DNA from: a virus
Virus record (IMG/VR): IMGVR_UViG_3300044535_000424
Span: 1 to 29,510 of that record
Length of the DNA: 29,510 nucleotides
Direction: 5' to 3' (one strand)
Shown here: positions 1,564 through 13,976 of the stretch, one piece after another
Numbering within the stretch: position 1 is the stretch's first letter
Layout: each line of letters begins with the position of its first letter
The notes under the pieces: generated by a model
Database searches by the model: none
Told to the model about the DNA's origin: nothing
Seen by the model: the letters and a program-made list of their open reading frames with translations, nothing else
Translations under genes and position numbers: made by a program

Positions 1564-2669
1564 CGAACAATGCTATTGATTAGTGGTTGAGCGTATTCAA
1601 AGTTGAAAGTATACATAATTAACTTGTCGTTTTTAGCCGTCTTTTTATCAAAGGCAGAATCCACGATCTGACAAGCATAGGTTTTAGCATTGTAATAAAC
1701 AAAAACCGCCGAGCTTAACATTAACTGTTGGAAATAATCGACATAAGATTCTGGAATCCAATTGGTATTTGCTAATTGCTTATAAATACCTTGAATATTA
1801 TATGGAGTTTTAATTCCAACACCATAAGACCAGGCTTCCGCCATATTAGTTTGAGCATATATGCCTTTGTAATATTCCTCTTTTGTGGTTGTCATTGCAA
1901 CCTTACTCACCGCATTAAATGAGTAACCCTCAATAACCCCATATCTATTTTTAAATAAGATAGTTGTAGTGCCATATTTATTTGGGCAATCAAACTTGAC
2001 GCTTATGGTTTCCGATCCAGTTGAATAATTGAATACGATATTGATATCCGATCCCCAAGTACCTCCAGCCGTTATGAGTTGTTTTAGCTCAACCGCTTGA
2101 ATGTAAGTGCTTGAATTAGTAACCGCAGTCGGAGTGATGGTGCTTGTGCCACAAACAATGCTCGTGATTTTAGTCGCATCATACCAAATATAGTCATATT
2201 GCGTTTCTGTGGTAAGATATACAGTTGTTCTGTCAGTTAAAACTCGTTTTGTGGTTGCCTGATTAAACCCTTCAAGTGTATATTCGTATCCTTTAGTGGC
2301 TAAAATGACATTACTTGTAACTGGAGCTGATGAACCACCGCCCCAAAATCCGTTTACTTTAACCGCACAATAAACCGCACCGCTTCCAATCGTTGATGTG
2401 GATGCTCCAATGGTTAAAAAATTGTCGCTTATATATTGAGTTACAATTTTAGAAATATCAATCCAACTACGATTACCAGCATAAGTGTCTGGAAGCCTAT
2501 TGATTTCCGCTATTGGCGAAGCTGGTATTGTGGTTGTCCCACTCCATACATAGATTCTATACTGATAAACGAAATTAGGTTGTGCATAGTCTGTATCGTA
2601 TGCTTGATAAAGCATTGAACTCAATGCCCCTTTTATACTTGTAGGTTGAACTGTTAAGCTTATAGCCAT
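1560..2669 (-). CDS. Tail structural protein, 369 aa
   Basis: The start ATG at 2669 overlaps the TAA of the upstream tail-completion gene (TAATG), and its TGA overlaps the ATG of the large tail protein (ATGA), so all three are probably translationally coupled. The product is beta-rich, with many Thr, Ser and Tyr residues. It carries the segment FKNRYGVIEGYSF near residue 240, a motif I associate with structural proteins of Bacteroidota phages. No membrane segment or signal peptide is present. The position argues for a tail component; tube-adjacent, fibre or baseplate are all possible. It is not the clearest candidate for the tail tube, which I place at 23223..23780. Confidence 0.75.
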   Translation of the reverse strand: MAISLTVQPTSIKGALSSMLYQAYDTDYAQPNFVYQYRIYVWSGTTTIPASPIAEINRLPDTYAGNRSWIDISKIVTQYISDNFLTIGASTSTIGSGAVYCAVKVNGFWGGGSSAPVTSNVILATKGYEYTLEGFNQATTKRVLTDRTTVYLTTETQYDYIWYDATKITSIVCGTSTITPTAVTNSSTYIQAVELKQLITAGGTWGSDINIVFNYSTGSETISVKFDCPNKYGTTTILFKNRYGVIEGYSFNAVSKVAMTTTKEEYYKGIYAQTNMAEAWSYGVGIKTPYNIQGIYKQLANTNWIPESYVDYFQQLMLSSAVFVYYNAKTYACQIVDSAFDKKTAKNDKLIMYTFNFEYAQPLINSIVR

Positions 2670-8325: not shown

Positions 8326-8746
8326 ATTCTTTGTAGATGATTAATAGGTCATTGATCATATCTTGCCAGGCTTTTGGGTTGCAAGTGCAAGGTCTGTAAA
8401 ACTTCCTTGATTGGAATACTCTATTCCATATTGTCGCAATCTCGTCGCCCTCTTGTTTTGTCAAGGTTGTATTGTTTACCTTTTGAAACTCGGTTAAATA
8501 GTTAAACTCATTCTCGGTTAAGCACAAAGGTTGCTTGTAACGGAATAACTTATTAAGCTTCTCTTTACGCTCTTCGCATCCGCAATCCTCACCAGCAATA
8601 AACTTGACTAACTTATCAATCCCAGTCGCTTTGGTTACCTTCGCAATCGTGTCCCCCAAACCTAACGATGGTTGTTCTTGTGTTTCTTGATTCTCGATAT
8701 GCTCGATAATCGTTTTTTGTTTGTTTTTTAAGTTTTTCTTTGGCAT
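8312..8746 (-). CDS. Conserved Cys-containing phage protein, 144 aa
   Basis: The protein begins with a Lys/Gln-rich segment and then shows LGLGDTIAKVTKATGIDKLV, followed by GEDCGCEERKEKLNKLF and a later PCTCNP. The DCGCxxRKxxLNxLF segment and the C-terminal Cys pair suggest a small metal-binding fold and recur in Bacteroidota phages near the sigma-like gene. The first 131 nt overlap the 3' end of the sigma gene in a different frame, an unusually long overlap. Function unknown. Confidence 0.7.
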   Translation of the reverse strand: MPKKNLKNKQKTIIEHIENQETQEQPSLGLGDTIAKVTKATGIDKLVKFIAGEDCGCEERKEKLNKLFRYKQPLCLTENEFNYLTEFQKVNNTTLTKQEGDEIATIWNRVFQSRKFYRPCTCNPKAWQDMINDLLIIYKEYGIN

Positions 8747-9206
8747 TTTTTATAGTATTAAATATTGAATGTACACCTATTCCAGTGCTTTTGGCTATAT
8801 CTCTTAAGCTGCAACCATTTACAAAGTACAATTCAAGGAGCATTTGTTCATATTCTCCGAATCCTTGTATAATTCGTTTAAGTTTATGAATTAAAACCTG
8901 ATATTTTTGCTCTTGATCATCAACTGGCTCAAGCTCGTATTCAAAATTGGTGAAATCCGCCCCGTACTCCTTGCGTTTGTGGAAGTCGTAGTATAGGTTC
9001 TGAATGACTTTAAAAACATAAACAGTATTGATACCTCCAGAATAGTTGACTAACTTCTCAAGGTTGCCTTCTTTAATTTGTAATTCGCCTATTTTTAAGT
9101 ACATCTGTTGCACAATTTCCTTTGCCGTCGCTGAATCCGCCCCTAAATAGTTCGCTATTTTAAGCCATTCTTTGTGCTTATTGGCAAAGTCTTGAAGCGT
9201 TAACAT
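8616..9206 (-). CDS. ECF-like RNA polymerase sigma factor
   Basis: This 196-residue protein has two helical domains. Residues 10-75 resemble sigma region 2 (WLKIANYLGADSATAKEIVQ, then QMYLKIG, like the VQExxL core). Residues 118-160 are a region 4 helix-turn-helix (LELYFVNGCSLRDIAKSTG, then VHSIFNTIKNAKEKL). No region 1.1 or 3 is present, which is the ECF layout. It probably redirects host RNA polymerase. The window contains five matching candidate promoters (GTAACAA-N13/14-GTT or GTA), mostly before structural genes, which is what an ECF-type factor would use. The final 36 residues overlap the next gene and may be dispensable. Confidence 0.75.
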   Translation of the reverse strand: MLTLQDFANKHKEWLKIANYLGADSATAKEIVQQMYLKIGELQIKEGNLEKLVNYSGGINTVYVFKVIQNLYYDFHKRKEYGADFTNFEYELEPVDDQEQKYQVLIHKLKRIIQGFGEYEQMLLELYFVNGCSLRDIAKSTGIGVHSIFNTIKNAKEKLKKQTKNDYRAYRESRNTRTTIVRFGGHDCEGNQSDWD

Positions 9207-12426: not shown

Positions 12427-13078
12427 AACAAGTTCTATAATGAAGACAAACACAAGCAAACATTCTCCAATTGATATTTGGCAAGGAGAAGTTATTTATA
12501 AATGTCATAAATGGGTTATTTTTCGTTTGGTCTCTTTTGTATTTATCTTCCAAAGCCAGTTTTAATTCACTGATCATAATTTCAAGTACAAACTCTGGGT
12601 ATTGCATATCATCAAAAGTCCTTATAAACTCATATTTTGAACTAAAGAACATTGGAAACGAATCAAACTTTTTGGATTCCTCGTACTCATACCAAACCTT
12701 CCGCATATCTTCATAGCCTTGGCGTTCCTCTTCAGGTGTAAGCTTCACAAAGTTTTCAGTCTTTTTAACTTGTGGCTTTTGGATATCAATTTCACCGAGC
12801 AATCCACTATTGATTGCCTTATAAATTACTGTTGCCACAAATTGAGCGTTTAAGCGTTCTGGCTTCTTTACATCAATTATTCCCATAATCCATTTGTCCA
12901 TTGAATCCTTAATGACATTGATATTGTATTTGCCATAGTTTTGTTTGATAAACTCAACAATCTCGGCTGGATACTTCGGAATGTCAAGGTCGGCTAACAT
13001 ACAAACATTCTCGAGGATCTTGCCAATTTCTTTATTTTGTGCGTCTTTTATATACATAGTTTTCAAATTTAATCCCAT
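12401..13078 (-). CDS. Replication-associated protein of unknown type, 225 aa
   Basis: This mostly helical 225-residue protein follows the replication initiator gene with a 10-nt overlap. Segments such as ILENVCMLADLDIPKYPAEI and FIKQNYGKYNINVIKDSMD resemble the N-terminal helical domain of a protein type that follows initiators in Bacteroidota phages, possibly a helicase loader or other replisome adaptor. No Walker A motif is present, so it is not an AAA+ DnaC. The role is inferred from position. Confidence 0.65.
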   Translation of the reverse strand: MGLNLKTMYIKDAQNKEIGKILENVCMLADLDIPKYPAEIVEFIKQNYGKYNINVIKDSMDKWIMGIIDVKKPERLNAQFVATVIYKAINSGLLGEIDIQKPQVKKTENFVKLTPEEERQGYEDMRKVWYEYEESKKFDSFPMFFSSKYEFIRTFDDMQYPEFVLEIMISELKLALEDKYKRDQTKNNPFMTFINNFSLPNINWRMFACVCLHYRTCYANRNIQS

Positions 13079-13779
13079 TTAATGATTTTTTCTTCCTTTA
13101 CTTTTATTTCATCTTCCCAACGCTCTTGGTTAAGGTATGTGAGTGGATGTGGTGGCGTATAACTTGCAAATGGTTTGTAAGCCAAAAAGCTCGGGAGCGT
13201 CGCCGAAATTTTCGCCCTCTGTGATTCCGTTAGTTTTTTGTATTTAGATTCACATCCTTTTTTGTTATTCTTATTAGGATATAAATTCCAAAAAGATTCA
13301 AAAGAAAAACAAGTATTTATATTATTATCCTTATTATTATTTACTCTATTATTATCTATATTATTATTGGGTGCAATTTTTTCACCATTAGAGTGCAAAT
13401 TTTTCACCCCTTGAGATGCAATATTTTCATCCTCTTGGTGCAAATTTTTCACTGTTGGTACGCTTACAATTTTAGTCTCATTATTAGCGATTGCCCATTC
13501 AGATTTGTTCTGAATCATTTTGCAATAAACCTCAGATGCTCTTAAAAATTTGGTTTTCTCATCCCTGATTACTAACCCTTTAAGTTCTAAAGCATTTATG
13601 ATATAAATTATGTTTCGTTTACTCAAGTCTAAATCATCGGCCATTCTTTGACGGCTTATGATTGCCCATCCACCATACTTAATGTTGTTTGATAAATGAT
13701 AAATTGAATCCAGAACGGCGTACTCGTTCATTGATAAGCATAAAGCTTTCCTAATTGGGTGTATTATTGTAGTATACAT
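13069..13779 (-). CDS. Winged-helix replication initiator / replisome organiser
   Basis: The 236-residue protein has an N-terminal winged helix (about 15-75: NEYAVLDSIYHLSNN, RQRMADDLDLSKRNIIYIIN, ALELKGLVIRDE). A polar linker with an Asn-rich stretch follows, and then a C-terminal section FESFWNLYPNKNNKKGCESK typical of phage replication proteins (FWxxYPxK). Such proteins bind the origin and recruit the helicase. ATG 13779 is preferred to 13794 because it follows the T-tract of the leader hairpin and lies outside it. The gene has its own promoter and a structured leader of about 95 nt. Confidence 0.75.
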   Translation of the reverse strand: MYTTIIHPIRKALCLSMNEYAVLDSIYHLSNNIKYGGWAIISRQRMADDLDLSKRNIIYIINALELKGLVIRDEKTKFLRASEVYCKMIQNKSEWAIANNETKIVSVPTVKNLHQEDENIASQGVKNLHSNGEKIAPNNNIDNNRVNNNKDNNINTCFSFESFWNLYPNKNNKKGCESKYKKLTESQRAKISATLPSFLAYKPFASYTPPHPLTYLNQERWEDEIKVKEEKIIKWD

Positions 13780-13833
13780 AAATAAAAACCCCACTCAAAA
13801 TTGAATAGGTCAAGTATCCAAAATTGAATGGGG
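13780..13833 (-). terminator. Leader hairpin plus T-tract directly before the initiator ATG (possible attenuator)
   Basis: In the minus-strand RNA CCCCATTCAA (13833..13824) can pair with TTGAGTGGGG (13798..13789), ten pairs including one G-U. A 25-nt loop lies between. TTTTTATTT and then the ATG follow at once. The position between promoter and gene suggests attenuation or control of translation rather than plain termination. Confidence 0.55.
13796..13829. repeat. Two 11-bp direct repeats in the initiator leader
   Basis: CAAAATTGAAT occurs at 13796..13806 and 13819..13829, 23 bp apart (about two helical turns). This is suitable for an operator, though the copies also form part of the leader hairpin. 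Confidence 0.5.
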
Positions 13834-13879
13834 CAGTATTTTTAAAAATTAAGTTCATCATTCTTGACCAATGATATTG

Positions 13880-13910
13880 CAAATATAAAGTTTGTTTTGT
13901 AATTTCCAAA
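13880..13910 (-). promoter_or_regulatory. Bacteroidota-type promoter for the replication block
   Basis: The minus strand reads TTTG (13910..13907), 19 nt, TATATTTG (13887..13880), a full consensus match. Transcription should start near 13873, leaving a leader of about 95 nt before 13779. Confidence 0.8.
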
Positions 13911-13917
13911 TATTAAT

Positions 13918-13940
13918 AGTATTTTCGCAATACTTTTTTC
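13918..13940. repeat. Inverted repeat directly upstream of the replication promoter
   Basis: AGTATT, five bases, AATACT. On the plus strand it is followed by a T run, so it could be a plus-strand terminator; as DNA it could be an operator just upstream of the -33 box. Confidence 0.4.
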
Positions 13941-13957
13941 ATATCTGACGGGATTAG

Positions 13958-13976
13958 GGGGCTATTGCCCCTTTTT
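13958..13976 (+). terminator. GC hairpin with T-tract reading on the plus strand
   Basis: GGGGC, TATT, GCCCC, then TTTTT on the plus strand. It overlaps the stop codon of the 13962..14390 gene. No plus-strand gene feeds into it; it may stop antisense transcription or simply end the minus-strand mRNA as a bare hairpin. Confidence 0.4.

Follow-up and report, generated by a model that had tools for sequence, protein, structure and literature searches.

Plasmids are the classical case of initiator genes being controlled by a leader RNA, and satellite phage P4 is another known one. In the plasmid ColIb-P9, the pseudoknot works at the level of translation, for which both a leader peptide and Inc RNA are required. 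In the rep leaders of pT181, pIP501 and inc18, as in the leader described here, a 5' sensor hairpin is able to base-pair with a portion of the intrinsic terminator that precedes rep, with competing folds and a kissing start of the pairing (PMC4878617). In the IncI-complex and IncL/M plasmids (ColIb-P9 repY-repZ), a 5' loop is complementary to a segment shortly before rep, which is also the case here, and in plasmid incompatibility the loops change in a matched fashion and hold the specificity (PMC10724649). According to PMC4825925, the replication operon of phage P4 is silenced by premature termination through CI RNA, which comes from its own leader and pairs with complementary segments there. 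The open-access literature yielded no account of a leader RNA as a general means of control ahead of tailed-phage replication operons.

The leader studied here lies in a viral sequence of 29,510 nucleotides (IMG/VR record IMGVR_UViG_3300044535_000424, positions 1 to 29,510), the whole of which is referred to as the window. Its features, and those of the adjoining region, are the following.

13880..13910, minus strand: promoter TTTG-N19-TATATTTG, of the Bacteroidota sigma-ABfr type, unchanged in five related leaders
13857..13875, minus strand: hairpin I, stem AUCAUU/AAUGAU with the loop GGUCAAG at 13869..13863, from folding
13751..13861, minus strand: possible leader open reading frame (MMNLIFKNTAPF...), starting in the 3' arm of hairpin I and overlapping the rep start
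13788..13834, minus strand: predicted terminator hairpin, from folding and a match in the terminator-like scan
13784..13788, minus strand: U-tract directly 3' of the stem, from the sequence
13069..13779, minus strand: rep, replication initiation protein and first gene of the replication operon (phrog_270, E 6.7e-24)
13372..13452, no strand assigned: about four iterons GTGCAAATTTTTCAC, 22-23 bp apart, inside rep, from a repeat search
13918..13934, plus strand: AT-rich hairpin followed by T6, with two compensatory pairs among the window-clade sequences
13956..13973, plus strand: terminator-like hairpin, from the terminator-like scan

The order on the minus strand is promoter, hairpin I, terminator hairpin, U-tract and rep ATG (at 13779), so that the predicted terminator abuts the first gene. 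The promoter, which an earlier sequence-only reading had placed upstream of the structured leader, is present there, with a perfect -7 match and a TTG at 19 bp spacing. When the F. johnsoniae consensus TAHHTTTG, whose final G is -5 (PMC6847099), is used as a reference, transcription would start at A13875, which is base 1 of hairpin I. The long terminator hairpin follows after a gap of about 22 nt. It extends from 13834 to 13788 (GCCCCAUUCAA-UU-UUGGAUA-CUUGACC-UAUUCAA-UU-UUGAGUGGGGU) and has an outer stem of 11 pairs (13834..13824 with 13798..13788), an inner stem of 7 pairs (13821..13815 with 13807..13801) and a 7-nt apical loop, CUUGACC (13814..13808). The ten-pair stem reported previously (13833..13824 with 13798..13789) is real, with nine Watson-Crick pairs and one G-U pair, to which RNAfold adds the eleventh pair and the inner stem, and the T-tract just before the ATG is also as described. 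The predicted minimum free energy (MFE) of the leader is -29.1 kcal/mol, against -15.6 ± 2.75 kcal/mol in shuffled sequences (z -4.9), and none of 200 shuffles is as good. The two 11-bp direct repeats ATTCAATTTTG (13829..13819 and 13806..13796, 23 bp apart) that had been listed beside the stem do exist, but they form the two sides of one hairpin and not a separate element; a role as protein-binding iterons was rejected, as they are halves of the terminator hairpin and the real iterons lie inside rep.

The complementarity of CTTGACC and GGTCAAG is likewise found at the positions given earlier, and the fold adds that each of these segments is an entire 7-nt hairpin loop, such that the two perfect complements are placed loop to loop. 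Taken alone, a complementary 7-mer in this AT-rich leader is not significant (p ~0.27 in the single-leader test), and its weight comes from the loop-to-loop placement and from the covariation in relatives. Close copies of the window leader were not found by DNA search, and the 44 relatives of the Rep C-terminus obtained in a first pass represent other genes or contexts, without a comparable leader. Searches of IMG/VR provided six distinct leaders (L002, L003, L082, L086, L088 and L189; the L-type leaders) that have the same plan as the window leader and a different sequence. A structural counterpart of hairpin I and a T5-T7 tract are present in all relatives. The hairpin I loops UUGGCGU, UUCGCGU and UUCGCAC of the L-type leaders pair with ACGCCAA, ACGCGAA and GUGCGAA, respectively; here the partner is the interior of the terminator hairpin, and there is a second 7-bp stretch.

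In the alignment of the six L-type leaders (A3), the 28 pairs comprise 168 cells, every one of which holds a standard pair (100%), and six pairs are changed on both sides, three of them among the seven loop pairs, as compared with 0-2 in slid controls; the loci are metagenome fragments, and the covariation families are small (n = 6, 6 and 3). The check for compensatory changes in homologues, as proposed by the sequence-only reading, is therefore favourable, and the equivalent of the terminator stem also covaries. Among L002, L082 and L086 there are 14 variable columns, of which 10 fall in pairing segments (10/30 versus 4/79 sites, Fisher p 3e-4), and all 10 substituted pairing sites are compensated, which corresponds to five pairs. 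A second pairing of 7 nt (P2) in the L-type leaders joins the segment with the leader AUG to the loop of an inner hairpin and varies in a matched fashion, in four versions that include GTAGTTA/TAACTAC, TCAGTAT/ATACTGA and TCAAGAT/ATCTTGA, with one mismatch in L189.

This P2 pairing, covering the leader AUG, raises the question of a leader peptide. In such a scheme, translation of the leader open reading frame would open the terminator and bring ribosomes to the rep start, and the loop pairing would hide the leader start codon. The frame remains open beyond the rep ATG in the window and in all six L-type leaders, and a T is found at -3 of the rep AUG, where 22 of 35 genes have an A. However, the probability of such an open frame arising by chance is 0.18 in window shuffles and 0.06-0.07 for the L-types, its sequence is poorly conserved, and the leader of the Flavobacterium phage FCV-1 is without such a frame although its loops pair. 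Coupling through a leader peptide is therefore considered quite improbable. The open reading frame is probably accessory or due to chance and at most an addition in this branch. The present leaders are set apart from the IncI complex by their U-tract terminator and by such a frame not being general among them.

The competition between the two pairings can be followed by folding growing prefixes of the transcript, a procedure that shows competition and not its outcome, as nested folding cannot represent a kissing state. For the L-type leaders, the long-range helix is the MFE structure in prefixes of 80-104 nt (-11 to -25 kcal/mol), and at full length it is the terminator (-28 to -31 kcal/mol), which is then ahead by a few kcal/mol. 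In the 80-nt prefix of the window leader, GGUCAAG is paired with CUUGACC (-9.3 kcal/mol), and later the terminator dominates at -28 kcal/mol. This is in agreement with the pseudoknot or competing fold suggested previously, since the long-range pairing and the terminator compete while the RNA is being made. In the window leader, the competing nested helix has no more than 7 bp and is far less stable than the terminator, so that antitermination in cis would there have to come from the kissing geometry or from kinetics. By its predicted anatomy, the leader is an attenuator, with a terminator between promoter and gene and a covarying pairing that competes with it. The succession of promoter, terminator hairpin with U-tract, and gene is kept in the relatives, and the exclusive alternative fold is backed by covariation, strongly in the L-types and more weakly, with its 7 bp, in the window.

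The same architecture is found in other phages. An alignment of the L-type Reps led to 40 loci, many of which look like phages of Bacillota, as judged from their Shine-Dalgarno sequences (the hosts being unrecorded). Upstream of their rep genes is a terminator hairpin, the loop of which has 6-9 nt complementary to a segment starting about 35-55 nt further upstream. In one sub-family (L244, L249, L252, L255, L259 and L260), three of the seven loop pairs are changed on both sides and all cells pair. Cultured phages are also included. FCV-1, from Flavobacterium columnare, has the loop pair GUAGAGAG/CUCUCUAC, and its leader matches 70 Flavobacterium phage records; in snusmum9-1, from Flavobacterium sp. 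LMO9, a homologous leader precedes a helicase / VapE operon and has its loops exchanged to GUGGAACG/CGUUCCAC. In this leader family, unrelated to the L-type, three of eight loop pairs are changed on both sides; loop covariation is thus seen again in two unrelated leader families. Tenacibaculum phage JQ has the same architecture with a 10-nt pair, AGCAUCCUAC/GUAGGAUGCU, and about a dozen further phage contigs share it. The pairing is loop to loop in most members. In Bacteroides phage B40-8, as in several other Rep relatives, the region immediately upstream has no such leader.

A strict detector, defined by a 5' hairpin, a terminator and a loop complement of at least 7 nt, finds the window leader and gives no match in shuffled sequence (0.87 Mb). 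In the 3.4 Mb that were fetched, most matches are such rep leaders, with a few others (L100, L240 and L241); the fetched sequence is enriched for rep loci, and this result is a measure of specificity and not of prevalence. The matches in L100 (Lentimicrobium) and in Cellulophaga phi38:1 were rejected as chance. In L241, a further terminator leader, complementary to itself over 9 + 8 nt, lies at 2125..2236, some 750 bp upstream of rep. A model of the L-type leader (R1) gave only chance-level or plain terminator matches in 395 Bacteroidia genomes, from which it follows that L-type leaders are uncommon in host genomes; R1 also misses the window leader because the sequences are too different. No Rfam 15 family is matched by the window or its relatives at the gathering score.

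It is an even matter, on the strength of these comparisons, whether the leader is a terminator-type transcription attenuator of the phage replication operon in which pairing in cis antiterminates and terminated leaders restore termination in trans. The loop of hairpin I would pair with the terminator loop (in the L-types with the interior), either as a kissing contact or as a competing long-range helix, and when this happens before the terminator is completed, the polymerase would pass. Terminated leader RNAs of other phage copies with the same loop pair would occupy hairpin I of nascent leaders, which would restore termination. More copies would then mean less initiator synthesis and less transcription through the origin within rep, and this fall with copy number would be seen only among phages that share a loop pair. 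The sequences show the architecture, the covariation, the diversified specificity and the competition in silico, whereas termination in vivo, the direction of the switch, the sign of the cis effect and the trans action are inferred; the contact between the loops might just as well make the terminated form more stable. The proposed action in trans is based on the loops, which always change together with their partner while the rest is constant, as expected under selection for specificity between molecules. The cognate loop duplexes have energies of -8.7 to -15.4 kcal/mol, and loops from different members of a family pair less strongly with each other, by about 2 to 10 kcal/mol. Loops that are diversified and mutually orthogonal in this way also suggest that phage copies act on one another, whatever the trans partner may be. 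P4 offers a precedent for silencing a phage replication operon through an RNA cut from its own leader; there, the processed CI RNA pairs with seqA and seqC, whereas here the pairing parts are the loop of a 5' hairpin and the loop of an intrinsic terminator.

A device might also work purely in cis, with the kissing contact making the terminator more stable or setting its timing, so as to fix a low level of rep without any trans partner. One RNA holds everything needed for this, and the covariation is in cis. Such a device leaves unexplained, however, the diversification of the loops into mutually weak pairs with all else constant, and it is considered unlikely.

The resemblance of this diversification to that of plasmid incompatibility loops also points to another possibility, namely an antisense RNA from the opposite strand that covers hairpin I and is mimicked by the terminator loop, on the model of pT181-type attenuation or of the IncI-complex pseudoknot. 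The L002 loop contains UUGGCG, a motif that a reference title in PMC10724649 gives for the target loop of ColIb-P9. Two terminator-like hairpins occur on the plus strand upstream of the sense promoter, where there is no plus-strand gene, and both (13918..13934 and 13956..13973) are possible terminators of an antisense transcript; in L189, however, these hairpins are not found. Searches for Bacteroidota-type and sigma70 promoters opposite the 5' hairpin also speak against it, as there is no TAHHTTTG promoter at a conserved plus-strand place and the sigma70-like antisense promoters in 19 leaders of other phages are no better than in shuffles (Fisher p 0.23). Control by a countertranscript is consequently rated as rather unlikely. 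Unlike in pT181, pIP501 and inc18, no antisense promoter is thus found here, the pairing involves the loop or interior of the terminator, mostly loop to loop, and the leaders occur in phages and have unrelated sequences.

The sequence-only reading had assigned the attenuator-like leader to the initiator. The attenuator part is borne out by the covariation and the competing fold, whereas feedback on the initiator goes beyond what the sequence shows. Control of the initiator alone is not supported, because the first gene after the leader differs in relatives (Rep or a 161-aa, 65-aa or 225-aa protein, with Rep first or second); the leader would thus control the replication operon and not a single initiator. 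The 225-aa protein, the first gene behind the leader in L189 (773..1450, minus strand), resembles Mom-type DNA modification proteins by eye. L189 sits in a divergent phage; its leader and that of L088 share 93% identity, compared with 77% for the Rep genes. The promoter and the upstream gene of the window are almost exactly common to five related leaders, which argues that the leader and the Rep N-terminus are exchanged as a cassette. The Reps of the window, L002 and L003 are almost identical in their C-terminal third, and their N-terminal halves are unrelated or distant. As judged from these sequences, the differing Rep halves and the exchanged leader are a modular exchange of initiator specificity. 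The iterons in rep are probably the origin, which would then lie downstream of the attenuator. Other iterons are found at the same place in L002 (2784..2875) and L189 (429..498), and the iteron sequence differs along with the N-terminal half of Rep. The arrangement is lambda-like: the iterons lie in the Rep linker at spacings of 22-24 bp, beside an AT-rich stretch. A phage-encoded sigma-factor-like protein is found at 8616..9206 and might use promoters other than those searched. No tyrosine integrase, as a sign of lysogeny, is present in the window or in the six related records, which are fragments.

A wider interpretation, put forward tentatively and with the balance against it, is that these short, self-complementary two-hairpin leaders belong to a class of phage RNA that is widespread and so far undescribed, each being an attenuator and, once terminated, an inhibitor of other copies in trans. 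Their loops would define replication-interference groups, much as in plasmid incompatibility, with no need for a separate antisense gene. A single architecture whose loop changes are compensated precedes replication operons in Bacteroidota phages and, as the Shine-Dalgarno sequences suggest, in phages of Bacillota, and as cultured Flavobacterium and Tenacibaculum phages are among them, it is testable now. If the loops act between genomes, one could read from them which co-infecting phages hold back each other's replication.
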